Positions 39,203 through 61,583 of a stretch of DNA of 64,000 nt are shown piece after piece. Under the pieces are notes generated by a model, which saw nothing but the letters and a program-made list of their open reading frames with translations, was not told the DNA's origin and did not search any database. A program made the position numbers and the translations under genes. Numbering within the stretch: the first letter of the stretch is position 1; each line of letters starts with the position of its first letter. Source of the DNA: Polynucleobacter duraquae (GTDB taxonomy: Bacteria; Pseudomonadota; Gammaproteobacteria; Burkholderiales; Burkholderiaceae); assembly GCF_000973625.1 (NCBI RefSeq), contig NZ_CP007501.1, forward strand, positions 744,001 to 808,000. Direction: 5' to 3'.

Positions 39203-39235
39203 TGTCATAAAAGAGACATACACACATCGTATTGT
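39203..39235 (+). promoter_or_regulatory. Pho box and -10 upstream of pstS
   Basis: TGTCATA (39203-39209), a 4-nt spacer and AGACATA (39214-39220) give the 11-nt repeat spacing of a PhoB site. TATTGT at 39230-39235, nine bases further on, can serve as the -10 element. Located 44 bases before the pstS ATG. Confidence 0.75.
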
Positions 39236-39278: not shown

Positions 39279-40301
39279 ATGAACTCATTTTTGAAAAAAG
39301 CGTTAGTTGTTAGCGCAATTTCATTTGCCCCAGTTGCATTTGCCGCGGACATGACCGGCGCAGGCGCAACATTCCCATACCCAATCTACGCTAAATGGGC
39401 CGAAGCCTATAAAGCAAAAACGGGTTCTAACTTGAACTACCAATCTATTGGTTCTTCAGGTGGTATCAAGCAAATTAAAGCCAAGACTGTTGATTTCGGT
39501 GCAACCGACAATCCAGTGAAATTTGAAGATTTAGAAAAAGATGGCATGGTTCAGTTTCCAGCCATTATTGGTGGTGTAGTGCCAGTGATGAACGTGGATG
39601 GTGTTAAGCCAGGCGAACTCAAATTAGATGGCCCAACATTAGCTGATATTTTCCAAGGCGTTATTTCTGACTGGGGTGACAAGCGTATTGCTTTGATGAA
39701 CCCTGGTGTAAAGATTCCTTCTGGCCCAATCACTGTTGTTCACCGTGCTGACGGTTCTGGTACAACAGCGATTTTTACTGACTACTTAGCGAAAACTAGC
39801 ACCCTCTGGAAAGATGCAGTTGGTGCAGGTGCTTCTGTTAAATGGCCAGCTGCTTCATCTGTTGGTGGCAAAGGTAACGAAGGTGTTGCTGCAAACGTTT
39901 CTCGCGTAAAGAATTCTGTAGGTTACGTTGAGTATGCATACGCCAAGAAAAACAAAATGACTCACATTTCTTTGAAAAACAAAGATGGCAATTATGTGCA
40001 GCCTGATGATGCAACCTTTGCTGCTGCTGCTGCTGGAACTGATTGGTCTAAGATCCCAGGTATGGGCACATTTATCACCAATGCTTCTGGTGCTAAGTCA
40101 TGGCCAATCACTGGTGCATCTTTCATCCTCTTGTACAAGAACCCAGATAACAAGGCAAATGCTGCCGAAGTAATGAAGTTCTTTGACTTCGGATTTAAAG
40201 AAGGCAAGAATATGGCTTTAGAGTTGGATTACGTGCCAATGCCTGATGTAACAACTGACTTCATTCGTAAGAATGTATTTTCTAAGGTTGTTACTAAGTA
40301 A
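39279..40301 (+). CDS. pstS: Phosphate ABC transporter substrate-binding protein
   Basis: Periplasmic phosphate receptor feeding PstCAB. The 340-residue precursor has a Sec signal peptide ending near VAFA-A22 or -A23. The mature start ADMTGAGATFPYPIYAKWAE is typical of PstS. Phosphate-contact segments SIGSSGGIKQIKAK and VHRADGSGTTAIFTDYLAK are present. A Pho box precedes it and two hairpins follow, so it should be induced by phosphate shortage and expressed above the permease genes. Confidence 0.97.
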   Translation: MNSFLKKALVVSAISFAPVAFAADMTGAGATFPYPIYAKWAEAYKAKTGSNLNYQSIGSSGGIKQIKAKTVDFGATDNPVKFEDLEKDGMVQFPAIIGGVVPVMNVDGVKPGELKLDGPTLADIFQGVISDWGDKRIALMNPGVKIPSGPITVVHRADGSGTTAIFTDYLAKTSTLWKDAVGAGASVKWPAASSVGGKGNEGVAANVSRVKNSVGYVEYAYAKKNKMTHISLKNKDGNYVQPDDATFAAAAAGTDWSKIPGMGTFITNASGAKSWPITGASFILLYKNPDNKANAAEVMKFFDFGFKEGKNMALELDYVPMPDVTTDFIRKNVFSKVVTK

Positions 40302-40307
40302 GCTTGG

Positions 40308-40329
40308 ATGATTAAGATTTCTTAATCAT
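40308..40329 (+). other. Stem-loop just after pstS
   Basis: ATGATTAAG and CTTAATCAT form a perfect 9-bp inverted repeat around ATTT, six bases past the pstS stop. There is no U-tract, so it more likely protects the pstS transcript 3' end than terminates. Confidence 0.55.
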
Positions 40330-40337
40330 TACTGAAT

Positions 40338-40370
40338 AACAGCCCCATCAAAAGTGGGGCTGTTTCAATA
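40338..40370 (+). terminator. Attenuating terminator between pstS and pstC
   Basis: AACAGCCCCA and TGGGGCTGTT form a perfect 10-bp stem with a 7-nt loop, followed by TTCAATATTT. As pstC has no obvious promoter of its own, partial read-through would give high PstS and lower PstCAB. Confidence 0.75.
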
Positions 40371-40387
40371 TTTAAATAAGCATAATC

Positions 40388-41377
40388 ATGATTGAATCGA
40401 CCCAGTCTCACTCAGCTCCGACGCCACAGGCGCTTAGCATTGCCAAGGTACAGCGTATTCAGGATTTCCTTTTTCATGGAATTACTCAATTCTTTGCTTT
40501 GACTGTCTTAATCACCTTGCTCGGCATTATTATTTCGCTAATCACGAACGCTTGGCCCGCTTTGAGTACCTTCGGCATCGGTTTTTTCTTTAGCGAAGAA
40601 TGGGATGTTGTTCAGGGTCAGTTTGGCGGTCTAATTGCGATCTATGGCACCTTAGCCACGTCTATCATTGCTTTATTGATTGCCGTTCCTCTGAGCTTTG
40701 GTATTGCGGTTTTCCTCACCGAATTATGTCCAAGCTCTCTTCGTCGACCTTTAGGAACTGCGGTGGAGTTGCTAGCAGCTGTACCTTCCATTATTTACGG
40801 TATGTTTGGTTTGTTTATTTTTGCACCCTTATTCGCCGAATATATCCAGCCAGCCCTGGGTGGAACACTCGGTCAGATTCCTGGTTTGGGCATTCTATTC
40901 TCAGGTGCATTTAACGGCATTGGCATCCTGAGTGCCGGCTTGATTTTGGCAATGATGATTTTGCCTTTTATTGCTTCTGTGATGCGCGATGTATTTGAGA
41001 TTGTTCCACCTGTACTCAAAGAGTCTGCCTATGGTATCGGCTGTACTACTTGGGAAGTGGTTAAAAATGTAGTCCTGCCTTACACCAAGGCTGGTGTGAT
41101 CGGCGGTGTGATGTTGGGTCTAGGCAGGGCGCTTGGTGAAACCATGGCGGTCACCTTTGTTATTGGCAATGCACACCGCTTATCTCCATCCTTATTCTCG
41201 CCAGGTACTTCAATCGCTTCCACACTCGCTAATGAGTTTGGCGAGGCTGAAGCGGGCAATCATTTATCTTCCTTATTCGCCTTAGGTTTGGCGCTTTTCA
41301 TCATCACATTTATTGTGTTGGCATTGGCTAAATTGATGCTCAACAATATGGAGAAGAAGCAGGGCTTAAAAACATGA
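40388..41377 (+). CDS. pstC: Phosphate ABC transporter permease PstC
   Basis: One of two inner-membrane permeases of the high-affinity phosphate transporter. The 329-residue protein has six membrane helices. PstC-typical stretches are [20 protein letters not shown] and the cytoplasmic coupling loop [38 protein letters not shown] follows. Its stop overlaps pstA by four bases. Confidence 0.96.
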
Positions 41378-42240
41378 GTAATTTTTCCAATATTGATTCC
41401 TCCCTTTTTGCGAAACGTAAGCGTGCCAATAAGATTGGACTAACCCTGTCTATGGGCGCCATGGTCATTGGCATGATCTTTTTATTATGGATTTTGAGTG
41501 TGTTGTTATTTAAGGGCTTTGCTGCCCTCGATATCTCGTTATTTACTCAAAGCACACCAGCGCCAGGTTCTGAAGGTGGTGGCTTGGCCAATGCGATTCT
41601 CGGAAGTCTCATGATTGTTGCCAGTTGTACATTAATCAGTACGCCAATAGGTGTGCTGGCTGGTTTATATCTTTCTGAATATGGGGATAGGAGTAGGGTA
41701 GCTGCGATAACCCGTTTTGTTACTGACATCATGTTATCCGCTCCATCCATTGTGATTGGTTTATTTGTGTATGCGCTCGTAGTTGCCCAAGTACGTCACT
41801 TCTCAGGCTGGGCCGGTACGCTTGCTTTAACTTTGATTGCGGTTCCAGTAGTTGTTCGCACTACCGAGAACATGTTGCGCCTAGTCCCTGGCAGCTTGCG
41901 TGAGGCTGCTTATGCCTTGGGTACGCCGAAGTGGAAAGTGGCTTTTAAGATTTCCTTAAGAGCGGCGCAAAGCGGTGTGATGACTGGTATTTTATTGGCC
42001 TTAGCTCGGGTGAGTGGTGAAACAGCACCTTTATTATTCACTGCGCTAAATAATCAGTTCTTCTCCACCAATATGAATGCGCCAATGGCCAATTTGCCAG
42101 TAGTCATCTTCCAGTTTGCAATGAGCCCATACGACAACTGGGTAGAGCTTGCTTGGGGTGGTGCACTATTAATTACTTTTGCTGTATTGGGCTTTAATAT
42201 TTTGGCTCGAGTGTTATTTCGCGAGAAGGTCCAAGGGTAA
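41374..42240 (+). CDS. pstA: Phosphate ABC transporter permease PstA
   Basis: Second permease of the Pst system, 288 residues and six membrane helices. Diagnostic stretches are [21 protein letters not shown], the coupling loop [20 protein letters not shown] and [16 protein letters not shown]. It overlaps both pstC and pstB, so the permease and ATPase genes are coupled. Confidence 0.96.
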
Positions 42241-43088
42241 TGAGTAATATGAAAACAATGTTTGACTTAAACAAGATCGATGGTCAAGGAACAGTAATGA
42301 ACGAAACGACAAGCCAAAACGCACAAACTCCGGTTAAGAATGCAATCGAAGTGCGTAATCTAAACTTTTTCTACGGATCCTTTCAGGGTTTGCAAAATAT
42401 AAACTTGGATATTGAAGAGGGCAAAGTAACCGCCTTTATTGGCCCTTCTGGTTGCGGCAAATCTACATTGCTCAGAACCTTGAACCGTATGTATAGCCTG
42501 TATCCAGGTCAACGTGCCGAGGGTGAGATTAATTTCTATGGCCAGAATATTTTGACCCCAGATCAAGATGTGAACCTACTACGCTCAAGAATTGGTATGG
42601 TTTTCCAAAAGCCAACTCCATTCCCAATGTCGATTTATGAGAATATTGCTTTTGGTGTACGTCTTTACGAAAAGCTTTCCCGCTCTGAAATGGATGAGCG
42701 TGTGGAGTGGGCCTTAAATAAGGCTGCTTTGTGGAACGAAGCAAAAGACAAGCTGAACCAAAGTGGTTTATCTCTTTCCGGTGGCCAGCAGCAGCGTTTA
42801 TGTATTGCCCGTGGTGTGGCTGTTAAGCCTTCCGTAATGTTGCTAGATGAGCCAACCTCTGCCTTGGATCCAATCTCTACAGGTAAGATTGAAGAGTTAA
42901 TTAATGAACTGAAGCATGAGTATACGATTGCGATTGTTACTCATAATATGCAGCAAGCTGCGCGTGTATCGGATTACACTGCCTATATGTACCTAGGAAG
43001 CTTAATTGAGTTCGGCAAGACTGATGAAATCTTCATCAAGCCTAAGCGTAAAGAAACAGAAGATTACATTACCGGCCGTTTCGGTTAA
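42240..43088 (+). CDS. pstB: Phosphate ABC transporter ATP-binding protein
   Basis: ATPase of the Pst importer, also part of PhoR signalling. The 282-residue protein has Walker [10 protein letters not shown] (near residue 75), the Q-loop [21 protein letters not shown], the ABC signature [14 protein letters not shown] and Walker [14 protein letters not shown]. The first about 30 residues are variable. An internal ATG at 42297 could be the true start. Confidence 0.96.
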
Positions 43089-43100
43089 TTGGAGAAATAA

Positions 43101-43808
43101 ATGCAAGATAAGCACCTTTCGTCACAATTCGATGCCGATTTAAATGGGCTTTCAAGCCGTTTGCTAGAAATGGGCGGTCTCGTTGAATCCCAAATTTCCA
43201 CAGCGATGCGTGCATTTACGCAAATGGATATTGAGACGTGCAATGTTGTCATCCAGAACGAAAAGCTGGTTAATGATTTAGAAATTCAGATTGATTTAGC
43301 CTGTACTGAACTCATTGCTCGTCGTCAGCCTACCGCTCGAGATCTCCGTCTCGTCATGGCTGTTTCAAAAGCGATTACCAATTTAGAGCGTGCCGGTGAT
43401 GAGGCTGAGCGCGTTGCTAAGAGAACTAAGCGCTTAATCGAAGCTGGAGCCACTCACAACATTAATGTTGCCGAAATTCGTTTATCTGGACAGATGGCAA
43501 TCTCTCTCTTGCGTCGCAGCTTAGATGCTTTTGCAAGGTTAGATACAGTTGCTGCTGCAGAAGTAGTTCAGGAAGATCGCCAAATTGATGAAGAGTTTAG
43601 AGGCTTTGTTCGTAAGCTGATCTCATACATGATGGAAGATCCTCATACGATTTCAACCGGTCTGGATATGCTGACTATTGCAAAGGCGATTGAGCGTATT
43701 GGCGATCATGCAAAGAACATTGCTGAATTCGTTATTTATATTGCCAAAGGCTCTGATGTGCGTCATATCCCTCATGAGGATTTGGTCCGCGAGGCAAATA
43801 AACCGTAA
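43101..43808 (+). CDS. phoU: Phosphate signalling protein PhoU
   Basis: Negative regulator connecting Pst transport state to PhoR. The 235-residue all-helical protein has two repeats of the PhoU three-helix bundle. Metal-binding E/DxxxD motifs are visible as TNLERAGDEAERVAKRTKR and AKAIERIGDHAKNIAEFV. GGAG precedes the ATG. It follows pstB by 12 bases. Confidence 0.96.
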   Translation: MQDKHLSSQFDADLNGLSSRLLEMGGLVESQISTAMRAFTQMDIETCNVVIQNEKLVNDLEIQIDLACTELIARRQPTARDLRLVMAVSKAITNLERAGDEAERVAKRTKRLIEAGATHNINVAEIRLSGQMAISLLRRSLDAFARLDTVAAAEVVQEDRQIDEEFRGFVRKLISYMMEDPHTISTGLDMLTIAKAIERIGDHAKNIAEFVIYIAKGSDVRHIPHEDLVREANKP

Positions 43809-43829
43809 CTCATCAAAGCGGAATTTCAG

Positions 43830-44543
43830 ATGACTCACCGAATATTGATTGTTGAGGATGAGCCTTCGATTGCGGAGCTGATTGCAATCAACCTGACTCA
43901 CGCTGGCTATGAAGTTGAAAGGGCGCTTCAGACTGATCTTGCTCTGAATATGATGCGAGATCAGCTGCCCTCTCTTTTGATCTTAGACTGGATGCTTCCT
44001 GGTAAATCAGGTGTTCAGTTTGCCAAAGAGCTGCGTGCAAATGAGCGTACCCGCTCTTTACCTATTCTGATGCTGACGGCCAAGAGCGATGAGTCCGATA
44101 AGGTTTTGGGCTTGGATTCTGGTGCAGATGACTATGTAACCAAGCCTTTCTCACCTAAAGAGTTGGTTGCGCGGGTCAAAGCGATTCTACGTCGCCAAAC
44201 CCCATTAGAAGACTCTGGACCTTTGGCTGTGGGTCCTCTGAGAATGGATCCACTTTCGCATCGTGTGACTGCTGTTTGGCCTAATATGGAGCCTCAATCT
44301 ATTCCCTTGGGGCCTACCGAATACCGCTTGTTGCAGTTTTTGATGTCCAATCCTGAAAGGGTGCATTCCCGGACAAATTTACTCGACAAAGTCTGGGGCA
44401 ATGAGGTCTATATCGAGGAGCGAACGGTTGATGTTCATATCAAGAGATTAAGGGCGGCCTTGTCACCTACGGACTGCGATCGCTATATAGAGACAGTGCG
44501 TGGCAGTGGTTACCGAATTACCAAGATGCCGACCCAGACCTAA
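43830..44543 (+). CDS. phoB: Phosphate regulon response regulator PhoB
   Basis: DNA-binding regulator that binds Pho boxes when phosphorylated. The 237-residue protein has a receiver domain with the acidic pair at residues 9-10, the phospho-acceptor Asp in LLILDWMLPGKSG (near 53) and the conserved Lys in YVTKPFSPKEL. An OmpR-type winged helix follows, with VWGNEVYIEERTVDVHIKRL. It lies between phoU and phoR, and its probable targets are in this window. Confidence 0.96.
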   Translation: MTHRILIVEDEPSIAELIAINLTHAGYEVERALQTDLALNMMRDQLPSLLILDWMLPGKSGVQFAKELRANERTRSLPILMLTAKSDESDKVLGLDSGADDYVTKPFSPKELVARVKAILRRQTPLEDSGPLAVGPLRMDPLSHRVTAVWPNMEPQSIPLGPTEYRLLQFLMSNPERVHSRTNLLDKVWGNEVYIEERTVDVHIKRLRAALSPTDCDRYIETVRGSGYRITKMPTQT

Positions 44544-44605
44544 TTAGAATCGAGCTTTACGCTAGAGTTTTGGGTCTGATGGAGCAGATGCTCTAAGATT
44601 GTCGT

Positions 44606-45904
44606 ATGTTATCTGTTATTTCTCGTTTTATTGTGCTGATTTGCCTGGCTTTTCTTGCGGCATACATAGCATCCTCCAATTTAGGCTCCTTCTCGGGTGT
44701 TGCGGCTGCAATATCTGTTCTATCAATTCCCCTGATTTATTCCTACATCAATTTAGCTCGTCTAAGAAAATTTACCTTATCGGACTCAGTCGAATCCATG
44801 CCTTTGCCAAGTGGCTATTGGGAGGAAATCTTTTTTCGCCTGCAGCGTTTAGTCCGCAATCTCAAGCAGCAAATACTCTCTATCGAAAAACAGCACCATC
44901 GTTTCATTGAGGCTTTTCAGGCCTCTCCCAATGGCATTGTGATGCTCGATAGCGAAGATCATATTGAGTGGTGTAATGCCATTGCTGAGCGCTTCTTTGG
45001 CTTGAGTTTTAAGCGTGATGCGCTCCAAAGGATTAATTTTCTGATACGACGCCCAGAATTTATCCAGTATTTATATAAGAGGGAATTTGAGGATCCATTG
45101 TTGATGGAGAGAATGGGGCCAAACGCTAATCTGAGTTTGATGTTGCAAATTTTCCCATTCGGTGATCAACGACATCTCTTGCTTGTACAGGACGTCACTG
45201 ATCTTCAGAAGGCTGATGCAATGCGGCGTGATTTCGTGGCTAACGTTTCACATGAAATGAGAACGCCAATTACTGTTTTGATGGGTTTTTTAGAGACTAT
45301 GCAGTCGCTTGACCTAGATAGATCCCAGCAAAGCCAATATTTTGACATGATGATGTCTCAGGCTCAGCGAATGAAGAGTTTGGTGGAAGACTTACTAACT
45401 CTGGCCAACCTAGAGGCCAACACCTCACCCGCCCCATTACAAGAAATGAGTATTACTACTCTGATGGCTCTTGTAAAGAATGATGCAGAGGCTCTCTCAC
45501 GGGGCCACCATATTCTTAGCTTTGAGATCTCAAATTCAAATAACTTAATGGGAGAGGAGCGGGAGATTCTTTCTGCATTTGGTAATCTGGTTTCCAATGC
45601 TATTCGATATACACCAGAAACTGCTTCAGTTAAGGTGAGATGGAGCGTGAATGAACGTGGGGAAGGCGAGTTTTCAGTTGCCGACACGGGGCCGGGCATT
45701 GCATCCGAGCATCTTTCAAGGCTGACTGAGCGCTTTTATCGCGTGGATAGAAGCCGATCTAGAGATACTGGAGGCACTGGTTTGGGATTGGCGATTGTGA
45801 AGCACATTGCCAACCGCCATCAAGCCCAACTCATTATTACTAGCGCCCCCGGACAGGGCAGTACCTTTACTCTTCGATTTCCTAAGGAGCGTATTTCAGA
45901 ATAA
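44606..45904 (+). CDS. phoR: Phosphate regulon sensor kinase PhoR
   Basis: Membrane histidine kinase partner of PhoB. The 432-residue protein has two N-terminal membrane helices and a PAS domain (about residues 100-200, e.g. ASPNGIVMLDSEDHIEWCN). The HisKA motif is FVANVSHEMRTPITVLMGF, with its phospho-His. The ATPase N, G1 and G2 boxes are NLVSNAIRYTPE, DTGPGIASEH and GGTGLGLAIVKHIANR. It is the last plus-strand gene of the pst-pho block. Confidence 0.96.
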   Translation: MLSVISRFIVLICLAFLAAYIASSNLGSFSGVAAAISVLSIPLIYSYINLARLRKFTLSDSVESMPLPSGYWEEIFFRLQRLVRNLKQQILSIEKQHHRFIEAFQASPNGIVMLDSEDHIEWCNAIAERFFGLSFKRDALQRINFLIRRPEFIQYLYKREFEDPLLMERMGPNANLSLMLQIFPFGDQRHLLLVQDVTDLQKADAMRRDFVANVSHEMRTPITVLMGFLETMQSLDLDRSQQSQYFDMMMSQAQRMKSLVEDLLTLANLEANTSPAPLQEMSITTLMALVKNDAEALSRGHHILSFEISNSNNLMGEEREILSAFGNLVSNAIRYTPETASVKVRWSVNERGEGEFSVADTGPGIASEHLSRLTERFYRVDRSRSRDTGGTGLGLAIVKHIANRHQAQLIITSAPGQGSTFTLRFPKERISE

Positions 45905-47551: not shown

Positions 47552-48378
47552 AAGCGCCAAGTGAACCCGATCTCTGAGCGAGAGGCATTGATGCCTGTAT
47601 TGCTTGCGATGATCCCCATATTTGCGGCGCTTCTCATATATGAGATGCCAACATCCACACTATCGCTTGCCGAGATGATGGCCGCAACTAAGGCGTAGTT
47701 GCTCAGATATTGTTCGGTGCTGGGTGGATTAGTCGTCAAACCCAAATCCACTGCCAGCCTGACCTTGTCTGCTACCCTCCAGACGGGTGCCATAGAGAAG
47801 AACCAGATATTGGTCCTATTTTCTGTAATACCAGCACCAATGCTGTAATTGGTGTTGTATAGGGACTTGCTATACATTGCATTGAAGTGAACTTCTACTA
47901 CATCCCAATATCGTGAAGCAATCAGATTGACCCCATAGTTTGGTAGTGCGAGGTCCAGTCCAGCAACCTGCTGCTGCGGGGATCCAGGTAGCGTAATGCT
48001 AGGTTTAACTGCCAAGCCCCACTGATCATTTTCAGCAAAACGCCATTTCATGGCGATTACCTTATTAGATAAAGGTGAGAAGCTGCCCCTTGGGGCTGCA
48101 AAGTAGGTGCTACCCAAGGATAGCTCTACATTGTCTGTAAGCCCTCGGGTATAGGTAAATGGGAAGGCCTTAGCCCCTTGCCCGCCAAAATATTCTTCTC
48201 CGGGAGTAATAATATCTGCGGTATTCGCAGATCCGCCACCATGTGAGGCCGTAGTAAAAAAATACTGCTCAATCTGATTTAAACCCTGAGGTACTGTACC
48301 GGCATCATCTGTATTGAGTGGTTCAAACGCCTGGCATACAAGCGGAATCAGCAGTAGGAGGACGGCAATCGATCGCAT
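47548..48378 (-). CDS. Putative outer-membrane beta-barrel protein
   Basis: The 276-residue precursor has a signal peptide (MRSIAVLLLLIPLVCQAFE). Many alternating strands typical of a barrel follow, and it ends in Trp-Arg-Phe, the terminal aromatic used for outer-membrane assembly. The early segment PLNTDDAGTVPQGLNQIEQYF resembles the MetA-pathway phenol degradation/transporter-like family. Function is unknown. It lies in the accessory segment between phoR and phoA, so a role in uptake under phosphate limitation is only a guess. Confidence 0.7.
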   Translation of the reverse strand: MRSIAVLLLLIPLVCQAFEPLNTDDAGTVPQGLNQIEQYFFTTASHGGGSANTADIITPGEEYFGGQGAKAFPFTYTRGLTDNVELSLGSTYFAAPRGSFSPLSNKVIAMKWRFAENDQWGLAVKPSITLPGSPQQQVAGLDLALPNYGVNLIASRYWDVVEVHFNAMYSKSLYNTNYSIGAGITENRTNIWFFSMAPVWRVADKVRLAVDLGLTTNPPSTEQYLSNYALVAAIISASDSVDVGISYMRSAANMGIIASNTGINASRSEIGFTWRF

Positions 48379-49277: not shown

Positions 49278-49317
49278 TTTTAATGTCACGACAATGACAT
49301 TAAAAGTGGCGAACATA
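49278..49317 (+). promoter_or_regulatory. Pho box within a perfect palindrome upstream of phoA
   Basis: TGTCACG (49284-49290) and TGACATT (49295-49301) are spaced by 11 nt as in a Pho box. They sit in a perfect 11-bp inverted repeat, TTTTAATGTCA and TGACATTAAAA (49278-49305), with a 6-nt centre. AACATA at 49312-49317 may act as the -10. It is 42 bases before the phoA start. Confidence 0.65.
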
Positions 49318-53992: not shown

Positions 53993-54030
53993 GCTCCTTC
54001 CCAGTAGACTAAGGTCTCGTTTCATGAATG

Positions 54031-54061
54031 TGTCATCAGAGTTTCATAAAATAGACATATT
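54031..54061 (+). promoter_or_regulatory. Three-unit Pho box upstream of ppx
   Basis: TGTCATC (54031), TTTCATA (54042) and AGACATA (54053) repeat every 11 nt. The last two units with their spacer closely resemble the pstS box. CATATT at 54056-54061 can serve as -10 for the first pair. Ends 30 bases before the ppx start. Confidence 0.7.
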
Positions 54062-54090
54062 CAAGTAAACCTGCTTCTATTGGAAATGCT

Positions 54091-55629
54091 GTGGCCTTAC
54101 AACAAAATAAATCCCTCATGAATGCAACTGAGCTTGTCGCTGCTGTCGACCTTGGGTCTAACAGCTTTCGTATGTTGGTTGCCCAAGTCGTCAAGACGCC
54201 CTCGGGTACTCAGCTTCGCCCGATTGATACGCTACGTGAGTCTGTACGCCTTGCTGCTGGATTAACGGATAACAAGTTATTGGGTAATGATGCCTATCAG
54301 CGCGGGATTGCAGCAATTCGGCGCTTTGGTGAGCGTATTCGGGGGTTTGATCCTGCCAATGTGCGCGCTGTAGCCACCAATACCCTGCGGGTAGCTAAGA
54401 ATGCACCTCACTTTATCCGAGAGGCTGAGGAGGCCTTAGGTTTCCCCATTGAAGTTATTGCAGGCGTAGAAGAGGCGCGCTTGATTTATATTGGCGCTGC
54501 CCATGAAGTGCCAGCAGTTCAGGGCAATCGCTTGGTGGTGGATATTGGTGGCGGTTCTACCGAGCTGATCATTGGTAAAGGTTACGAGCCTAGGCTGATG
54601 GAAAGCCTCTATATCGGCTGTGTTTCTCATAGCCTGAGATTCTTCCCTAAGGGCAATATCGATTCCCATGCTTTTAAAGAGGCAGAGCTAGCTGCCAGAA
54701 GAGAAATTCAGGTTATTTCTGAGGCATATCTAAAGGCTGGCTGGAAGCAGGTGATCGGCTCTTCGGGAACTGCACGTGCTTTAGCCGAACTGATTGCCGA
54801 AAACAACTTCAATGGCCAGATAGATAATGCTGATGGCTTGATTACCCGAGATGGCTTAAGAGCCATGAAAAAGCATCTGTTGAAATATGATCACATCAAT
54901 CAGGTAGAGCTTCAAGGTCTTAAAGATGATCGTCGCTCAGTATGGCCTGGTGGTCTTGCCATCATGATTGCTGTATTTGATGAGCTCGGTATTGAATCCA
55001 TGGAGGTCACGGATGCTGCCTTGAGAATCGGTGTGCTTTATGACTTGCTAGGCCGCTCGCAGCATGAAGATATGCGCTTTGTGACGGTTGAGCAATTTAT
55101 GCAGCGCTATGCTGTAGATCGGGAGCAGGCTAAGCGTGTTGGTAATCTCGCTGCCGAGTTCTTGGCGCAATTACCTAAGCCAGATGAAGAAAGTCGAGCG
55201 GACAATATTGCATTATTGCAGTGGGCCGCTAATCTTCATGAAATCGGTTTATCGATATCGCATAACGGATACCACAAGCATTCTGCATACATTGCTGGCA
55301 ATGCCGATATGCCGGGTTTCTCAAAAAATGATCAAGCTAGATTAGCCGCCTTACTGATTGGTCACACCGGTAAGTTGGGGAAATTGGCGAATAACGCCTC
55401 CTTCTCTGATTGGCGTATGTTGTTTTGCATGCGACTTGCTCAAGTTCTTTGCCGTGGGCGTAGCGACATCAATTTACCCAAAGTAAAAGTCTCCGAGCAC
55501 AATGGAGACTATTTAGTCAGTCTTTCCAAGGACTGGGCTAGAGAACATCCATTAACAGAATTTAGCCTGCAAAAAGAAGCGGCCGAATGGGAGCGCATCG
55601 GCCGACCTTACAACATTAGCTTGAAGTAA
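54091..55629 (+). CDS. ppx: Exopolyphosphatase / guanosine pentaphosphate phosphohydrolase
   Basis: Removes terminal phosphate from polyphosphate or pppGpp. The 512-residue protein has the ASKHA ATPase-like motifs VAAVDLGSNSFRMLVAQV and VVDIGGGSTELIIG. It also has IGSSGTARALAELI and a C-terminal HD-like helical domain (AANLHEIGLSISHNGYHKHSAY). GTG 54091 is used. ATG 54118 would remove nine residues. The usual partner ppk1 is not next to it. Confidence 0.93.
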   Translation: MALQQNKSLMNATELVAAVDLGSNSFRMLVAQVVKTPSGTQLRPIDTLRESVRLAAGLTDNKLLGNDAYQRGIAAIRRFGERIRGFDPANVRAVATNTLRVAKNAPHFIREAEEALGFPIEVIAGVEEARLIYIGAAHEVPAVQGNRLVVDIGGGSTELIIGKGYEPRLMESLYIGCVSHSLRFFPKGNIDSHAFKEAELAARREIQVISEAYLKAGWKQVIGSSGTARALAELIAENNFNGQIDNADGLITRDGLRAMKKHLLKYDHINQVELQGLKDDRRSVWPGGLAIMIAVFDELGIESMEVTDAALRIGVLYDLLGRSQHEDMRFVTVEQFMQRYAVDREQAKRVGNLAAEFLAQLPKPDEESRADNIALLQWAANLHEIGLSISHNGYHKHSAYIAGNADMPGFSKNDQARLAALLIGHTGKLGKLANNASFSDWRMLFCMRLAQVLCRGRSDINLPKVKVSEHNGDYLVSLSKDWAREHPLTEFSLQKEAAEWERIGRPYNISLK

Positions 55630-55632
55630 TTC

Positions 55633-56568
55633 TTACTGCCCAAAGAAGTGTTTAGCGTACCGAGGATTGATATCTGATAGACGCAACATAGTCAAGACAT
55701 CTGCTGTATTGAAGTCTGGATCCCAGGCAGGTGCGCTACAAATCTTGGCGCCTAACTTTAAGTAACCTTTGATCAACGGTGGAGGTTCTACTGCTAGGCC
55801 ACCATTGAGTCGCTCGAGAGGTAAGGGTAGGCGTGGGAAGGCGTGGTTTTCAACTGGCGCCATCTGATCATTACTTAGTGAGTTATACAGACTGGCTGCA
55901 AAGTGACCGCCATCACCCATGGGGATGCTGGCACAGCCGAGCATGATTTCATAATCGTGCTTTAGCATGTATTGCGCTAAGCCGCTCCACAAAGCCATGA
56001 TGACCGCGCCTGAACGAAAGTCTTCGTGCACACAAGATCTACCAAGTTCAACTAATTTAGGGCGTAAGTGATCCAAGCGGCTTAAATCAAACTCTGAGTC
56101 TGAGTAGAGACGTCCAATCTCTAGCGCTTTGTGCGGAGGGAGTACGCGATAGGTGCCGACTACTCTTAATGACTCCTGATCGCGTATCAGTAAATGATCG
56201 CAATAGGCATCAAATTCGTCAATATCCAGGTTTTCTGGATTGCTTGGAAGCTTGGCCCCCATCTCTTCTGCAAATACCTTGTAGCGCAGGCGTTGTGCTT
56301 CTTTAATCTCACTGGCGCTACTAGCCCAAGTAATTTGAAATGCAGGGCGCTTTGGCTTAGCGATTGCCTTCTCAACAACTGGCTCTATGGCTCTGAGCTC
56401 TGCTCTAGCTTTAGTGGCAAATTTTTTACCAAATAGCTTCTTCGCAATTTTTTTAGAAAAAAGCTTTTTTATCGCCTCAGTTTTACTCTTTTTAATCTTC
56501 TTTGGCTTTGCTTCAAAGCGCGAATTAAAGAGATCAAATGCAGCAAGCGGATTTGGAATATCAGACAT
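55633..56568 (-). CDS. olsB: OlsB-like GNAT N-acyltransferase (ornithine lipid synthesis)
   Basis: Probably transfers a 3-hydroxyacyl chain from acyl carrier protein to the alpha-amino group of ornithine, giving lyso-ornithine lipid. The 311-residue protein carries the OlsB-type GNAT region EAQRLRYKVFAEEMGAKL, SLRVVGTYRVLPP and LVELGRSCVHEDFRSGAVIM with the later YMLKHDYEIMLGCASIPM. An N-terminal Lys/Ala-rich stretch of about 75 residues is unusual. It is last in the minus-strand operon with dgkA, agt and plcP. Some annotations call this family hemolysin-like, without functional support. Confidence 0.8.
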   Translation of the reverse strand: MSDIPNPLAAFDLFNSRFEAKPKKIKKSKTEAIKKLFSKKIAKKLFGKKFATKARAELRAIEPVVEKAIAKPKRPAFQITWASSASEIKEAQRLRYKVFAEEMGAKLPSNPENLDIDEFDAYCDHLLIRDQESLRVVGTYRVLPPHKALEIGRLYSDSEFDLSRLDHLRPKLVELGRSCVHEDFRSGAVIMALWSGLAQYMLKHDYEIMLGCASIPMGDGGHFAASLYNSLSNDQMAPVENHAFPRLPLPLERLNGGLAVEPPPLIKGYLKLGAKICSAPAWDPDFNTADVLTMLRLSDINPRYAKHFFGQ

Positions 56569-56610
56569 GGTGTTCCTTAATTATTAATAATCAATAGTAA
56601 AAAATGGGTA

Positions 56611-57021
56611 TTACCAATTGATGACAAGGGGTATGCAAATCGTTGCCCACAATAAGGCGGCAATGAGCAGGGCGAGCATGACTGCAGCCGAGCCAAAGTC
56701 TTTTGCTCTTTTCGATAGATCATGATGATCAAATGAAATACGATCGATAGCAGCCTCAACACTGGAATTCAGTAGCTCGACAACTAAAACCATGATGAGC
56801 GATGCAATGAGGGCGCATTTCTCAAGAGGGCTAATCGGCAAGAAAAGGGCAATGGGGCTCAGCACAACAAATAAGAAAAGCTCTTGTCTAAAAGCACTCT
56901 CCTCTTGAAATGCGTAGACTATGCCGCACCAAGAGTTCTTGGCAGCATGCCATGCTCTCGTGAGCCCCCGGTTCCCTTTATGGGGGTTTTGTTTGATGTC
57001 GTAAGGTGCTGACAAAATCAA
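56611..57021 (-). CDS. dgkA: Diacylglycerol kinase
   Basis: Phosphorylates diacylglycerol to phosphatidic acid in the inner membrane. The 136-residue protein has three membrane helices. The family signature ELLNSSVEAAIDRIS and LSKRAKDFGSAAVMLALL is present. Start is TTG 57021 (TTG 57015 also possible), three bases after the agt stop, with no strong ribosome site. Length is close to the usual 120-125 plus an N-terminal extension. Its co-operon position suggests it handles diacylglycerol released by PlcP. Confidence 0.88.
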   Translation of the reverse strand: MILSAPYDIKQNPHKGNRGLTRAWHAAKNSWCGIVYAFQEESAFRQELFLFVVLSPIALFLPISPLEKCALIASLIMVLVVELLNSSVEAAIDRISFDHHDLSKRAKDFGSAAVMLALLIAALLWATICIPLVINW

Positions 57022-57024
57022 TGC

Positions 57025-58053
57025 TTAAGCAAGGGCGGTGGTATGAACTGCTGTCGAGGGCACGGGCTTTAGATGCTTGGCAAACTGTTCTGAAGCTGCT
57101 CTCCAAGAAAACTTCTCAGCATGTGCTCTGGCTAGTTCACGAGGAATCTTCAGAGCTTGCATACAAGCTATTTGAAGATCTTCATGCATTGCGCCGGCAG
57201 TAGAGTTGCCTAAAACATCAATTGGACCGGTCACTGGATAGGCTGCTACTGGCGTGCCACAAGCCATAGCCTCTAATATCACCAGCCCAAAAGTATCGGT
57301 TTTACTTGGGAAGACAAAAACATCGGCAGCAGCATATACCTTGGCTAACTCCTGTTGCTGTAGAACCCCAAGATAATTGATATTAGGATATTTTTCTTTA
57401 ATACTGGCCATTGCAGGTCCATCACCAACAACCCACTTAGAACCTGGTAGATCTATCTCTAAAAAGGCATTGATATTTTTCTCTACCGCTACTCGACCAA
57501 CATATAAAAAGATGGGGTGAGCGCTATTGAGGACTTTAGAGTCTTGCATTTTGAAAATATCTAAATCTACACCGCGAGACCACAGTACGACATTTTTAAG
57601 GCCGTACTTCTCGAGATCGTCTTTAACAACAATAGTTGGTGCCATCACAGCCATCGAAGGGCCATGAAACCAGCGAATAAAAGCATAGGTAATGGCCAAA
57701 GGAATTCCGGTGCGGGCTTTGACGTACTCAGGAAAACGGGTGTGATAGGCAGTAGAGAATGGCAAATTATTCTTTACAGCATAAGAGCGAGCTGAAAGGC
57801 CTAAAGGACCCTCTGTAGCAATATGCATTGCATCCGGCGCAAATTCTTTAATGCGGCGAGCAACTTCTTTTCCGGGGAATAAGGACAAGGCAATATCTGG
57901 GTAGGTAGGGCAGGGGATCGACTTAAAACCCGTTGGGGTAATCATTTCGACTTCATGACCCATGCCGATCAGTTCAGCTATCGTTTGTTTGAGCGTTCTC
58001 ACAACACCATTCACTTGTGGATCCCATGCATCAGTAATGATCATAATTTTCAT
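57025..58053 (-). CDS. agt: GT4 glycosyltransferase, Agt-type
   Basis: Probable diacylglycerol glycosyltransferase making glycolipid to replace phospholipid when phosphate is short. The 342-residue GT-B protein starts MKIMIITDAWDPQVNGVVRT, with the acceptor-side Gly-rich loop. It carries the GT4 E-x7-E region SKTDTFGLVILEAMACGTPV. The gene directly follows plcP with a four-base overlap, the order known for plcP-agt pairs in marine heterotrophs. The sugar donor cannot be told from sequence. Confidence 0.8.
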   Translation of the reverse strand: MKIMIITDAWDPQVNGVVRTLKQTIAELIGMGHEVEMITPTGFKSIPCPTYPDIALSLFPGKEVARRIKEFAPDAMHIATEGPLGLSARSYAVKNNLPFSTAYHTRFPEYVKARTGIPLAITYAFIRWFHGPSMAVMAPTIVVKDDLEKYGLKNVVLWSRGVDLDIFKMQDSKVLNSAHPIFLYVGRVAVEKNINAFLEIDLPGSKWVVGDGPAMASIKEKYPNINYLGVLQQQELAKVYAAADVFVFPSKTDTFGLVILEAMACGTPVAAYPVTGPIDVLGNSTAGAMHEDLQIACMQALKIPRELARAHAEKFSWRAASEQFAKHLKPVPSTAVHTTALA

Positions 58054-58859
58054 ACGGAAACCTCTTTAATTAGTGCTGCAATCTCGGGTTGGAGAGTAAT
58101 TTCAGGTACTTCCACTGGATCACCATGAATCTGAGTCCAGTAAATAATTTTGAGTTCGCCAGTTGTAGTTTCTACAAGCGCTGATAGGCTTTCGACCCAA
58201 TCACCATCGTTGCAATACAACAGGCCATCGATTTCACGAATTTCTGCTTTATGAATATGGCCGCATACAACGCCATCACAATTTCTTAAGCGGGCTTCTC
58301 TAGCCATGATGTGCTCGAAGTCAGCGATATAGCTGACCGCATTTTTTACTTGATGCTTAAGATATTGGGAGAGGGACCAATATTGCAACCCCATCTTGAC
58401 CCGAATCATATTGAAGTAGCGATTGATATATAAAATAAAGGAATACAGTGAGTCGCCGACATAGGCAAGCCATTTAGCGTATTGCATTACGCCATCAAAT
58501 AAATCACCATGAGTTACCCAAAGCTTACGGCCATCTAAGGTCGTATGGATGACCTCTTCTTGCACCTTGATATCACCAAAGGACATGCCAAAGTACTGAC
58601 GAGCTGCTTCGTCATGATTGCCGGGAATGTAAATCACTTCGGCACCCTTACGGGCTTTACGTAATAATTTTTGCACCACATCATTGTGGGTCTGTGGCCA
58701 GTAAAAGGACTGCTTTAAGCGCCAACCATCGATAATGTCGCCTACTAAGTAAAACTGGTCAGCTTCATTATGTTTTAAGAAATCGAGGAGGTAGTTTGCC
58801 TGACACCCTGATGTTCCTAGGTGTACATCTGAAATCCAAATCGCTCTGTAATGCGTCAT
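58050..58859 (-). CDS. plcP: PlcP-type metallophosphoesterase (phospholipase C)
   Basis: Expected to remove the phosphorylated head group from phospholipids, releasing diacylglycerol. The 269-residue protein has all metallophosphoesterase motifs: Asp11 and His13 in WISDVHLGTSGCQ, Asp41 in LVGDIIDGW, IPGNHDE, THGDLFDG and GHIHKAEI. This family is often annotated UDP-2,3-diacylglucosamine diphosphatase. The agt partner and Pho box favour PlcP, but biochemical confirmation would be needed. First gene of the minus-strand operon. Confidence 0.8.
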   Translation of the reverse strand: MTHYRAIWISDVHLGTSGCQANYLLDFLKHNEADQFYLVGDIIDGWRLKQSFYWPQTHNDVVQKLLRKARKGAEVIYIPGNHDEAARQYFGMSFGDIKVQEEVIHTTLDGRKLWVTHGDLFDGVMQYAKWLAYVGDSLYSFILYINRYFNMIRVKMGLQYWSLSQYLKHQVKNAVSYIADFEHIMAREARLRNCDGVVCGHIHKAEIREIDGLLYCNDGDWVESLSALVETTTGELKIIYWTQIHGDPVEVPEITLQPEIAALIKEVSV

Positions 58860-58880
58860 GAGTAACTATTAAGCCGATTC

Positions 58881-58922
58881 ATTATGAAGACCTCATGACA
58901 CTTTTACGACAGTTTGATGACT
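58881..58922 (-). promoter_or_regulatory. Three-unit Pho box and -10 upstream of plcP
   Basis: On the minus strand AGTCATC, TGTCGTA and TGTCATG repeat every 11 nt (58922 down to 58894). CATAAT (58886-58881) follows seven bases later as the -10. The last two units match the Pho-box consensus best. The orientation points to plcP. The divergent plsC-like gene shares the intergenic region. Confidence 0.75.
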
Positions 58923-58943
58923 TGATTTATATTACTGCTAGTT

Positions 58944-59729
58944 ATGAAGCGCTCCCAATCAAACCCCGACTCAATTTCCACCTCAGCCCTAAGTAGTTGG
59001 CTTCGCCATTGGAAATGGATGCAGATCTTGGTGCATGTAATTAGTGGGGTCTGCTTGCTAGCTTTTTTGTTTCCCTTTATAAGTCGCGGTCAGAAGGACC
59101 GCCGCATACAAAAATGGTCTCAGAAGTTATTAAAAATCTTTCATATTCAGTTGCGTGTGATTGGTGCTGAAAAATTGCCCTCCAGCCACTATTTGCTGGC
59201 ATCAAATCATATTTCCTGGTTAGACATTCATGTGATTAATGCATTTAAACCGGTCCGTTTTGTTGCAAAATTAGAGGTACGGGGATGGCCTGTATTTGGA
59301 TGGATGGCAGAGCAGTTGGGTACCGTTTTTATCCGCAGAGATAGTGCGCGCCATGCAAGGCAGGTGGTAGACCAGATGGCTGAGGTTCTGAGGGTAGAGT
59401 CGGTCTGTATTTTCCCCGAGGGTACTTCTACTTCCGGAGAGTCAGTACTGCCCTTTAAGCCTAACTTATTTGAAGCTGCCATCATAGCTCCTGCACCAGT
59501 CTTAGCAATAGCAATTGCCTACCGCTCTAAATCAACAGGCCTTAGGAGCGATGCCCCTGCATTTATTGGAGATATGGGGTTGCTGGAATCGATGTCCAAT
59601 GTCATTGCCAACCGAGATATAGAGGTGCATTTAAGCCTAATGGAGCCTTATTTAATAGGCAATCCAAATAATCCCGATCGCAAGGAACTCGCTCTCCATT
59701 GCCAAGAGGCTATTTCTAAAACCTTATAA
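58944..59729 (+). CDS. 1-acylglycerol-3-phosphate acyltransferase family (OlsA-like)
   Basis: The 261-residue protein has a membrane helix near the N-terminus (LVHVISGVCLLAFLFPF). PlsC-family motifs follow: NHISWLD (HX4D), GTVFIRRDSARHA and FPEGTSTSGESVLPFK. In ornithine-lipid pathways a PlsC-like enzyme (OlsA) adds the second acyl chain. Adjacency to an olsB-like gene makes OlsA plausible, but a second PlsC for glycerolipids fits equally. Divergent from plcP over an 84-base region with the Pho box. Confidence 0.75.
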   Translation: MKRSQSNPDSISTSALSSWLRHWKWMQILVHVISGVCLLAFLFPFISRGQKDRRIQKWSQKLLKIFHIQLRVIGAEKLPSSHYLLASNHISWLDIHVINAFKPVRFVAKLEVRGWPVFGWMAEQLGTVFIRRDSARHARQVVDQMAEVLRVESVCIFPEGTSTSGESVLPFKPNLFEAAIIAPAPVLAIAIAYRSKSTGLRSDAPAFIGDMGLLESMSNVIANRDIEVHLSLMEPYLIGNPNNPDRKELALHCQEAISKTL

Positions 59730-59794: not shown

Positions 59795-60700
59795 ATGACA
59801 TCAAAGCATAAAGAAATAGATGAGTGGTACAAGAGCGCTCGTGAAGACATTCTAGACAGCATGGATGAAGAGCTCGAAATGGAGCTCGATGATGATCGCC
59901 TGTCACCGGATGGCGGAAGTGCCTCTGTCATACCTCGAAATGTCTACTTTAAGGAATTGTTTCGCCTGCAAGGTGAATTGGTCAAACTCCAAGATTGGGT
60001 AGTGGAAAACAAACTCAAGGTGGCTGTTTTATTTGAAGGTCGCGATTCTGCTGGTAAGGGCGGCGCGATCAAACGGATTACCCAACGTCTTAATCCCCGC
60101 GTTTGTAAAGTCGTTGCATTGACTGCACCTAGCGAGCGTGAAAAAACCCAGTGGTACTTTCAGCGCTACGTATCTAATTTGCCTGCTGGTGGCGAGATCG
60201 TATTGTTTGACCGTAGCTGGTACAACCGTGCTGGTGTTGAAAAGGTCATGGGATTTTGTAACGATGCCGAGTATGAGGAGTTCTTGCGAACAGTTCCTGA
60301 GTTTGAGCGCATGATTATTCGCTCCGGAATCATTCTGATCAAATACTGGTTTTCTATCTCAGACGATGAGCAATATAGTCGTTTTATGGTGCGTATTCAT
60401 GATCCATTGAAGCAATGGAAACTGAGTCCAATGGACTTAGATGCTCGCCGTCGTTGGGAGGACTATACCAAAGCAAAAGAGATCATGCTGGACCGTACAA
60501 ATATTCCTGAGGCGCCTTGGTGGGTTGTGGCTGCAAACGACAAGAAAAAAGCCCGTCTTAATTGTATTTCGCACCTGCTAACTCAAATTCCCTATAAGGA
60601 AATTGATCATCCTGAAATCACCTTGCCTGAACGAGTGCATAATCCGGACTATCTTCGTGGGCCGGTGCCGAAAAATATGTACGTTCCCGAGGTCTATTGA
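59795..60700 (+). CDS. ppk2: Polyphosphate kinase 2
   Basis: Transfers phosphate between polyphosphate and nucleotides, usually making ATP or GTP from polyphosphate. The 301-residue single-domain protein has Walker A EGRDSAGKGG (residues 81-90), Walker B EIVLFDRSWYNRAGVEKVMG and the lid stretch ARRRWEDYTKAKEIML. The acidic N-terminus (DSMDEELEMELDDDR) is notable. A Pho box precedes it, and the next gene is a CYTH-like protein. Class I PPK2 is likely. Substrate class needs testing. Confidence 0.9.
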   Translation: MTSKHKEIDEWYKSAREDILDSMDEELEMELDDDRLSPDGGSASVIPRNVYFKELFRLQGELVKLQDWVVENKLKVAVLFEGRDSAGKGGAIKRITQRLNPRVCKVVALTAPSEREKTQWYFQRYVSNLPAGGEIVLFDRSWYNRAGVEKVMGFCNDAEYEEFLRTVPEFERMIIRSGIILIKYWFSISDDEQYSRFMVRIHDPLKQWKLSPMDLDARRRWEDYTKAKEIMLDRTNIPEAPWWVVAANDKKKARLNCISHLLTQIPYKEIDHPEITLPERVHNPDYLRGPVPKNMYVPEVY

Positions 60701-60755: not shown

Positions 60756-61583
60756 TTGAAACCAAAGCAAGGCATTACTAATAGAGAATTTAAGCTCCTG
60801 ATCAAGCCTCAGGGCTTGGATAGGCGTAGCCGCATTACTACTTTGAGCGATCAAATTCTTCAGTTCTGCAAAAAAAGTAAGGTGGAATTTTTTCACTTAG
60901 ATAACGCTACAACAGGCTTACGGAATATCTATTTTTACGATACGCCTGGTGAAGATTTCAGACGTAATAATATTATTTTGCGCGTACGTGAGTCTCGTCA
61001 AAACATCTGGGTTGATGACTGGTGCGAGGTTACCCTAAAGTGCCGTACAGGTGATTTACAGAAGTCCCATGAATTTGATCCATCACCTAAAAAAACAATC
61101 AAATCACGTTTACGCCTGAAAGAAGAAATTCTACGAGGCGATACGATTGGCACAAGTAGAGCGATTTACTCTAATAACGCCATCTTGGATGCGGTACCTA
61201 TTGACAGCCTTTTTGAAAAATCTTTAGCTAGTGTTGCCAAGTATTTCCCGGGTCTGATGACTTTACCGATCGATAAAAAATCACCCATTCGGATTGTTGG
61301 TGGTCGTACCAATAAGATTCTTGAGGCCTGTTTACCGATTGGCAACTTAGTATTTGGCGATGGTGTACAAGCGCATTGCGAAATTGCTATCTGGATGAAG
61401 AGCGTGGGCGATCCAATTGTTGGAGAATTAGCTTTTTCTTATCGAGTCAACGATGCAAACCGAGGCCAAGAAAAAGCGCATCGACGTGCCGATAAATTTT
61501 TCAAGAAACTTCAAGTAGAGTTAGAAGATTGGTTGGAGATTGGTAGCACCAAAACTGCCTTGGTATACGGAAAACCTGAGTGA
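60756..61583 (+). CDS. Divergent CYTH / triphosphate-tunnel metalloenzyme-like protein
   Basis: A 275-residue protein I do not recognise by name. Its layout suggests a CYTH/VTC-type triphosphate tunnel: NREFK at 9-13 (a variant ExExK lacking the first Glu), YFYDTPGEDFRRNNIILRVR ending at 78, EVTLK at 91-95 and LKEE at 121-124. Later acidic strands are CEIAIW and GELAFSYR. Family members hydrolyse or synthesise triphosphates or polyphosphate. Immediate linkage to ppk2 supports a polyphosphate role, but this is inference. Start TTG 60756 follows GAGGGGGG. Confidence 0.65.
   Translation: MKPKQGITNREFKLLIKPQGLDRRSRITTLSDQILQFCKKSKVEFFHLDNATTGLRNIYFYDTPGEDFRRNNIILRVRESRQNIWVDDWCEVTLKCRTGDLQKSHEFDPSPKKTIKSRLRLKEEILRGDTIGTSRAIYSNNAILDAVPIDSLFEKSLASVAKYFPGLMTLPIDKKSPIRIVGGRTNKILEACLPIGNLVFGDGVQAHCEIAIWMKSVGDPIVGELAFSYRVNDANRGQEKAHRRADKFFKKLQVELEDWLEIGSTKTALVYGKPE

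Follow-up and report, generated by a model that had tools for sequence, protein, structure and literature searches.

Two routes by which a bacterium can make membrane lipids without phosphorus appear to be encoded side by side in the genome of Polynucleobacter duraquae, raising the question of whether they answer to one phosphate switch and how they came together. The host genome is a single contig of 2.03 Mb, from which the window (the whole stretch of DNA analysed, 64,000 nucleotides) was taken. All five open reading frames of the cassette were found in the window (Table 1). The genes plcP-agt-dgkA-olsB lie on the minus strand, with a 4 bp overlap of plcP and agt and spacings of 3 bp (agt-dgkA) and 42 bp (dgkA-olsB), and olsA is divergent. 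Their products match the Pfam families Metallophos, GT4/GT1, DAGK_prokar, Acetyltransf_5 and Acyltransferase, respectively. Reading frames, spacings and families thus all agree with the tightly packed arrangement drawn in the sequence-only reading, which had also placed the cassette within 20 kb of pst-pho genes: it is 9.7 kb from the end of phoR and 16 kb from the start of pstS. A comparison with plasmids gave no near match. The preferred interpretation, with a probability of roughly 0.8, is a PhoB-activated operon that would spare membrane phosphorus through PlcP/Agt glycolipids and OlsB/OlsA ornithine lipid. What the DNA itself shows is the set of genes, their order and conservation, and a Pho box with fixed geometry; the enzyme activities are putative, assigned by analogy with characterised relatives.

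Table 1. Features of the cassette and of neighbouring phosphate genes (positions in the window)
Feature	Position	Strand	Description
Pho box	58879..58922	-	four half-sites, 11-bp period: 58912-58922, 58901-58911, 58890-58900, 58879-58889
-10-like element GGCTTAAT	58868..58875	-	shortly past the fourth half-site, 8 nt ahead of the plcP ATG
plcP	58050..58859	-	metallophosphoesterase, PlcP type (predicted phospholipid headgroup-phosphate hydrolase, releases diacylglycerol); Metallophos domains
agt	57025..58053	-	GT4-type glycosyltransferase, likely diacylglycerol glucosyl/glucuronosyl-transferase; Pfam GT4/GT1
dgkA	56611..57021	-	prokaryotic diacylglycerol kinase, TTG start as listed; PF01219 113 bits (gathering score 22.3)
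olsB	55633..56568	-	ornithine N-acyltransferase (predicted), lysine-rich N-terminal extension of about 75 residues; PF13444 131 bits
olsA	58944..59729	+	divergent lyso-ornithine-lipid O-acyltransferase (predicted); OlsA equivalogs 126 and 121 bits
ppk2	59795..60700	+	polyphosphate kinase 2, downstream of olsA; TIGR03707 370 bits, above cut-off
ppx/gppA	54091..55629	+	exopolyphosphatase, convergent with olsB; Pfam match
Pho-box-like element ahead of ppx	54020..54063	+	four units; 3-unit score 18.2, window rank 2 (simulated maximum 8.8)
pstS-pstC-pstA-pstB-phoU-phoB-phoR	39279..45904	+	each above at least one curated NCBIfam cut-off
Pho-box-like site ahead of pstS	39203..39224	+	2-unit score 17.6 (simulated maxima: 13.3 on average, 18.3 at most)
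Pho-box-like site ahead of alkaline phosphatase-like gene (49347-51098)	49284..49305	+	2-unit score 16.6 (simulated maximum 18.3)

A three-unit Pho box with a -10 had been proposed between plcP and olsA. The box is indeed there, but it has four half-sites, and the hexamer CATAAT was set aside as the -10 because it forms part of half-site four and its conservation is below that of GGCTTAAT, the conserved -10-like element. Column conservation was taken over 74 genomes, i.e., 80 rows minus the own locus (L064), two decayed (L105, L119), two diverged (L109, L117) and one with a changed start codon (L118). To train a Pho-box matrix, 73 of the 80 genus loci fetched were used; the own and the nearest locus, together with five that had decayed or diverged, were excluded. 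With this matrix the plcP box ranks first in the 64 kb. Its three-unit score is 34.2, whereas the highest value across 20 simulated sequences of 64 kb is 8.8, so that the box is far beyond chance. The matrix also picks out a clear site ahead of ppx. The sites ahead of pstS and the phoA-like gene take the top two-unit ranks after plcP and are in expected places, but their scores are within the simulated range. A simple genome scan with STGTCATNNNNSTGTCAT and three mismatches was uninformative (330 matches vs 299 for the reversed control).

The spacing of box, -10-like element and ATG is fixed. Gapless geometry was scored at 16 positions in 79 of the 80 loci, plus 22 of 24 named Polynucleobacter loci, and is present in 72 of the 79 genus loci (16/16 positions in 69, 15/16 in three). 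L110, L117, L122 and L141 keep 14/16, and the geometry is lost in L109 and L191 (P. rarus). Of the 22,128 ATGs scored as a control in 40 loci, a total of 40 reach 16/16, and the highest score below that is 13. Since the -10-like element is so close to the ATG, transcription would start at or within a few nucleotides of it, and the recurrent geometry suggests, by inference only, a nearly leaderless plcP mRNA. A Shine-Dalgarno check discriminated poorly: plcP has no clear match (best 3/6) and agt and olsB have 5/6, but olsA, ppk2 and ppx also have only 3/6. With its fixed promoter, plcP would be a clean example of a PhoB-driven gene that may lack a leader.

Other Burkholderiaceae have the same genes and share the plcP promoter core. 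The core, half-site-N8-GGCNNAAT, a pattern framed after some of these family loci were seen, precedes plcP in 13/20 of them, with 14 matches in total in 585 kb (both strands). In its strict form it occurs in 38/79 genus loci, 0/2 loci of 'Ca. Methylopumilus' and 1/32 order loci. When the matrix was compared with locus shuffles, the upstream site beat all 40 shuffles in 13/20 family plcP, 14/33 order plcP and 21/29 olsB loci. More reliance is placed on a stricter comparison with windows of the same locus, where the site is the best window in 9/20 family plcP loci. Among 29 olsB loci of other Burkholderiaceae, drawn from the 49 ppx/olsB loci outside Polynucleobacter, it is the best window in six, 0.65 being expected, a signal that is only suggestive. 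The ppx gene provides no valid control for this test because it has Pho-box-like sites too (best window in 11/29 loci).

We infer the following order of events. At low phosphate, PhoB would bind the four half-sites and drive plcP-agt-dgkA-olsB. PlcP would remove headgroup phosphates from phospholipids to yield diacylglycerol (DAG), and Agt would add glucose and/or glucuronate to DAG, forming phosphorus-free glycolipids; an NDP-sugar dehydrogenase and GalU, both encoded in the genome, could supply the substrates. Ornithine lipid would be made by OlsB together with OlsA, the product of the divergent gene. A counter-argument is that a DAG kinase inside a phosphate-saving operon opposes net DAG formation; DgkA might serve as an overflow valve converting surplus DAG to phosphatidic acid.

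The operon may instead be Pho-controlled with olsB and dgkA expressed also, or mainly, constitutively from internal promoters, ornithine lipid and DAG recycling then being housekeeping and plcP-agt alone the starvation response. Consistent with this, DgkA and OlsB are each single in the genome (sole PF01219 and sole PF13444 match), no gap in the operon is wider across the genus loci than that between dgkA and olsB (median 49, range 15 to 173 bp), and P. aeruginosa is described with ornithine lipid in normal growth conditions in the available text of PMC9804370. However, olsB appears to have joined the Pho operon and is retained there genus-wide, and control from internal promoters is considered unlikely.

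The PhoB-activated operon resembles known systems in its parts. In P. putida BIRD-1, PlcP, DagK, OlsA and OlsB are described as Pho-dependent (PMC5082522), and in P. aeruginosa plcP-agt and olsBA as phosphate-responsive (PMC8528852, PMC9804370). In the parts of these three papers available, phosphate response of both lipid routes in one cell is thus already published for Pseudomonas. The PlcP-Agt remodelling systems of Sinorhizobium, Phaeobacter MED193, SAR11, P. aeruginosa and Methylosinus OB3b are described with a PhoB-type box and plcP beside a glycosyltransferase gene, as here (PMC4796936, type 2; PMC8528852; PMC9239053), whereas the Polynucleobacter operon continues with dgkA and olsB and has olsA divergent. 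The section text of PMC4796936 gives six plcP neighbourhood types and names olsB in none. The OlsB plus OlsA pathway is likewise shared with P. aeruginosa and P. putida, where it is reported to respond to phosphate (PMC9804370, PMC5082522), but olsBA of P. aeruginosa is described as an operon of its own (PMC9804370), whereas in Polynucleobacter olsB is the last gene of the plcP operon and olsA is transcribed in the opposite direction. The titles and abstract beginnings examined in an open-licence library contained nothing on a plcP-agt-dgkA-olsB operon, Polynucleobacter lipid remodelling or leaderless plcP. The enzymes are of known kinds; the new parts are the fusion of the operon and its apparent transfer.

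All four genes are in order in 69 of the 80 fetched genus loci; in seven more, the intervening dgkA alone is missing, the cassette is broken in three, and one locus ends at a contig edge. A strong plcP match is present in 111/121 genus genomes (fragments in five of these), and any match in 114, three of which are weak and LpxH-like. Both routes in one operon had been thought uncommon. The exact operon does mark the genus, but it is genus-wide rather than peculiar to this genome, and plcP and olsB are within 10 kb of each other in 13/59 non-Polynucleobacter order genomes with strong matches to both. Elsewhere in the Burkholderiaceae the blocks are apart, whereas in Polynucleobacter they are fused: agt follows plcP in 18/20 family loci and plcP-agt-dgkA is kept in 16/20, with olsB or olsA at 0/20 plcP loci, and the ppx/olsB pair occurs in 49/80 named loci with no plcP in the examined stretch. 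This separation points to a fusion in the Polynucleobacter lineage, in which an ancestral plcP-agt-dgkA unit would have come to lie upstream of olsB at the former ppx/olsB site, ppx/gppA apparently being the ancestral neighbour of olsB.

The fused module may also have moved. 'Ca. Methylopumilus' has plcP-olsB/olsA in the divergent layout with the same 16-position promoter geometry (2/2), and it groups with Polynucleobacter in the trees of all three genes: with the Polynucleobacter clade whose operon is without dgkA for OlsB (95/91) and OlsA (91/97), and in one clade with Polynucleobacter for PlcP (99/94). Shared geometry and grouping in three trees suggest transfer, the plcP-olsB/olsA version with its promoter probably having passed from Polynucleobacter to 'Ca. 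Methylopumilus'. The full proposal, that a complete phosphorus-free membrane module with a four-unit PhoB switch and a leaderless plcP message was fused in Polynucleobacter and moved as a unit to this unrelated streamlined freshwater methylotroph, is tentative, its chances somewhat short of even, because the PlcP tree, in which Methylopumilus is on a long branch (1.41), fixes no place for it among the Polynucleobacter branches. The likeness of the two clusters might instead reflect convergence or long-branch attraction, reverse transfer, or a source in a third lineage. The AU rejection, too, is moderate (p 0.0165) and concerns a grouping named after tree inspection, and a single clade uniting all Polynucleobacter OlsB passes the test (p 0.0855). 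Outside rows are scarce in the OlsA tree, and plcP-olsB linkage arose elsewhere as well. Such explanations are improbable nonetheless, given that the OlsB, OlsA and PlcP trees agree, that both layout and geometry are shared, and that three other genomes of the Methylopumilus family have a different OlsB and a weak PlcP match or none. Phosphorus-limitation lipid remodelling is described in the accessible parts of the open literature for marine bacteria, methanotrophs and pseudomonads; here the groups that encode the trait, and between which it seems to have been transferred, are two from fresh water. If the full proposal holds, a single phosphorus-sparing trait that can be transferred would be common to two lake lineages.

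The phosphoesterase had been read as PlcP type, with placement beside LpxH as its refutation, and it withstood that test. The true LpxH of the genome, at C1:939008, scores 230 bits (cut-off 190), while PlcP has 38 bits with the same model and 45 with a second one (cut-off 134), so that no curated score is reached. LpxH identity was ruled out because the genome has this separate, full-score LpxH, with which PlcP shares 23% identity over 120 residues. The protein is a metallophosphoesterase distinct from LpxH and a putative PlcP. That it is an LpxH-like lipid A enzyme, in an operon serving the envelope in general, is very improbable: the weak LpxH similarity and the PDB matches, all LpxH (E about 2e-5), speak for it, but the full-score LpxH elsewhere, the Pho control of plcP as read from sequence and its travelling with agt and dgkA speak against it.

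Nor was the reading refuted by the GNAT protein: its best matches are two OlsB equivalogs (about 176 bits each, below the cut-offs of 350 and 320), whose model codes we take to stand for Rhodobacter and Brucella, and the next family, OlsF, scores 59. The NCBIfam scan of the cassette returned no PlcP- or Agt-named model, so the acceptor and sugar of Agt are putative. Agt has a GT4-type domain and adjoins plcP; its best NCBIfam models are GlcN-PG synthase (89 bits) and MGlcDAG synthase (63 bits), both far below cut-offs. The divergent acyltransferase scores higher with the OlsA models than with the AGP acyltransferase model (95 bits), though below the OlsA cut-off of 300. In the other PF01553 protein of the genome the order is reversed (AGP 80, OlsA 48), no cut-off being reached in either protein. 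PlsC identity was ruled out for the divergent gene because of this more PlsC-like protein elsewhere. For both OlsB and OlsA, the scores come to at most about half of the curated equivalog cut-offs. A CYTH-like protein is also encoded in the cassette neighbourhood.

The window spans positions 744001-808000 of a genome that consists of a single contig of 2,026,292 bases (completeness 99.99%), and close kin of the window's OlsB and of one neighbouring protein are records carrying the name Polynucleobacter. The window holds pstSCAB-phoU-phoB-phoR, an alkaline phosphatase-like gene, ppx, ppk2 and the lipid cassette, whose genes were located as ORFs exactly where the sequence-only reading had placed them. 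The minus-strand genes plcP, agt, dgkA and olsB are packed at operon density (a 4-bp overlap, a 3-bp gap and a 42-bp gap), and in 69 Polynucleobacter loci the median distances from one matched stretch to the next are 0, 11 and 49 bp.

PlcP has a metallophosphoesterase domain and LpxH models score far under cut-off; a true LpxH is encoded elsewhere in the genome (230 bits). Agt is a GT4-type glycosyltransferase for which all specific models fall below cut-off; both proteins were assigned by domains, model scores and gene position. We infer the sugar and acceptor of Agt from its position beside plcP and from characterised systems; the genome also encodes GalU and an NDP-sugar dehydrogenase. DgkA matches PF01219 with 113 bits, the genome's single match. 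For OlsB, two OlsB equivalogs rank top at 176 bits, under their strict cut-offs of 320-350, and OlsF reaches 59 bits. OlsA scores 126 and 121 bits with OlsA models (cut-off 300) versus 95 with AGP acyltransferase, and the sole other PF01553 match in the genome shows the opposite (AGP 80, OlsA 48). Residues 1-75 of OlsB form a Lys/Ala-rich extension that exceeds the N-termini of OlsB in loci L166 and L167, and it might serve as a membrane anchor.

The most likely scheme takes its activities from characterised relatives and its regulation from conserved sites. Under phosphate shortage PhoB would activate PlcP, which would produce DAG and set headgroup phosphate free; Agt and OlsB/OlsA would make phosphorus-free lipids, and DgkA would convert surplus DAG to phosphatidic acid. 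Published work describes PlcP-Agt glycolipid remodelling and phosphate-responsive OlsBA within one Pseudomonas cell (PMC8528852, PMC5082522, PMC9804370), and another report describes neighbouring plcP-agt with Pho boxes in several marine bacteria (PMC4796936). As far as the open-licence literature searched goes, the single operon, the genus-fixed promoter and the proposed fusion and probable transfer of the cassette are new.

A gapless alignment of 74 Polynucleobacter promoters from the plcP ATG shows four half-sites with an 11-bp period and GGCTTAAT at -19 to -12, the ATG being at -3 in that numbering. When 16 fixed positions are compared, this geometry reaches 16/16 in 69 of 79 genus loci and 15/16 in three; the seven lower-scoring loci are L105, L109, L110, L117, L118, L122 and L141. 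Named Polynucleobacter loci give 16/16 in 17 of the 22 scored and 15/16 in three. Outside the genus it occurs in 2/2 'Ca. Methylopumilus', 0/20 other Burkholderiaceae and 1/32 loci from the rest of the order. As a control, every ATG in the first 40 of these loci was scored (22,128 in total); 40 have the full 16, and scores of 14 or 15 do not occur. Locus L291 (genome G263), from another family of the order, has 16/16 before a plcP that seems N-terminally extended, which hints that the distance between last half-site and ATG is old. A strict core, a half-site followed by 8 nt and GGCNNAAT, was framed after some of the tested sequences had been seen; it precedes plcP in 13 of 20 other-Burkholderiaceae loci (14 matches in total in 585 kb), 38/79 genus, 0/2 Methylopumilus and 1/32 order loci. 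The 13 family loci suggest that the promoter core may predate the genus. If GGCTTAAT is the -10 element, the plcP transcript would start on the ATG or only a few bases from it. Clear Shine-Dalgarno matches precede agt and olsB and are missing before plcP, olsA, ppk2 and ppx; since the latter three also lack one, this check lends weak support to a leaderless plcP.

A Pho-box matrix built from relatives was applied to the 64-kb window, with 20 simulated windows as baseline. In the three-unit form the plcP site ranks first (34.2) and ppx next (18.2), against a simulated maximum of 8.8; the two-unit form gives plcP 24.6, pstS 17.6, the phoA-like gene 16.6 and ppx 16.0 (simulated maximum 18.3, mean 13.3). 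Compared with the simulated windows, plcP and ppx thus have clear sites, while those of pstS and the phoA-like gene, inside the simulated range, gain weight solely from their location before expected genes. As ppx has its own Pho-box-like element, low phosphate may induce the exopolyphosphatase, whose gene shares the locus with ppk2.

Coordinates of features in the window
Feature	Position	Strand	Remark
plcP-agt-dgkA-olsB	55633-58859	-	
olsB	55633-56568	-	
olsA	58944-59729	+	
Four half-sites of plcP Pho box	58879-58922	-	
-10-like element of plcP	58868-58875		8 nt before ATG
Four-unit Pho-box-like element of ppx	54020-54063		score 18.2
ppx	54091-55629		
275-aa protein after ppk2	60756-61583	+	CYTH match below threshold, 18.5 bits (cut-off 23.2)
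ORFs of 322, 139 and 276 aa	52281-53669 and 47548-48378	-	no Pfam match over cut-off

The relatives suggest a fusion. Family loci outside Polynucleobacter carry plcP-agt-dgkA without olsB/olsA in 16 of 20 cases (one with a broken plcP), plcP-agt in two and plcP alone in two. Among the best 80 of 574 named-genome OlsB relatives, taken as loci, 49 have a convergent ppx/olsB pair without plcP in the stretch examined and 26 have plcP beside olsB, these being 25 that are Polynucleobacter-like by similarity, whatever the record name, plus 'Ca. Methylopumilus'; the others are three short contigs without plcP (L187-L189) and two loci with olsB-olsA. The simplest history would be that a plcP block joined olsB at a former ppx/olsB site. 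dgkA is absent from the operon in 7 of 80 genus loci. In other Burkholderiaceae, the highest-scoring Pho-box window of the locus lies upstream of olsB in 6 of 29 cases, against 0.65 expected, which only suggests that olsB already carried a Pho box of its own when the fusion took place. In a set of 150 order genomes, strong matches were found to olsB in 104, to plcP in 76 and to both in 62. The two lie within 10 kb in at least 16, of which three are Polynucleobacter and 13 belong to seven further families; this count is a lower bound, as weak matches are excluded and contig ends break loci. In locus L167 (G363), from another family, plcP-agt-olsB stand in identical order and a dgkA match is divergent; this is apparently an independent assembly.

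In 'Ca. Methylopumilus universalis' (L179) and in its close relative L166 (G403), plcP and olsB share a strand and olsA is divergent; no agt separates plcP from olsB, and other glycosyltransferase genes occur in the vicinity. Their OlsB clusters with a clade of Polynucleobacter whose operons have no dgkA (support 95/91), and their OlsA lies inside the same clade (91/97, in a 26-row tree with few outsiders). Their PlcP forms one clade with Polynucleobacter (99/94), the branch within it being unsettled in the tree. With a grouping chosen once the tree had been seen, a constraint uniting the OlsB proteins of Methylopumilus and of three further genomes in its family was rejected (p 0.0165), and one placing all Polynucleobacter OlsB in one clade was not (p 0.0855). 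A cassette transfer involving Polynucleobacter and 'Ca. Methylopumilus' is probable, with the long Methylopumilus PlcP branch as a caveat.

The plcP cassette is broken or truncated in genomes G017 (L105), G103 (L119) and G023 (L106); G017 and G103 each consist of one contig of ~1.6 Mb, smaller than most in the genus list. That these are host-bound strains is a guess from genome size, and the breakage is possibly a loss where phosphate is supplied.

The 275-aa protein has 444 matches, the best 120 of which are mostly 'hypothetical protein' or unnamed, several from Polynucleobacter; it is possibly a CYTH relative that would bind polyphosphate or triphosphate. The 322-aa and 139-aa ORFs are both present in just 7 of the 80 genus loci fetched.
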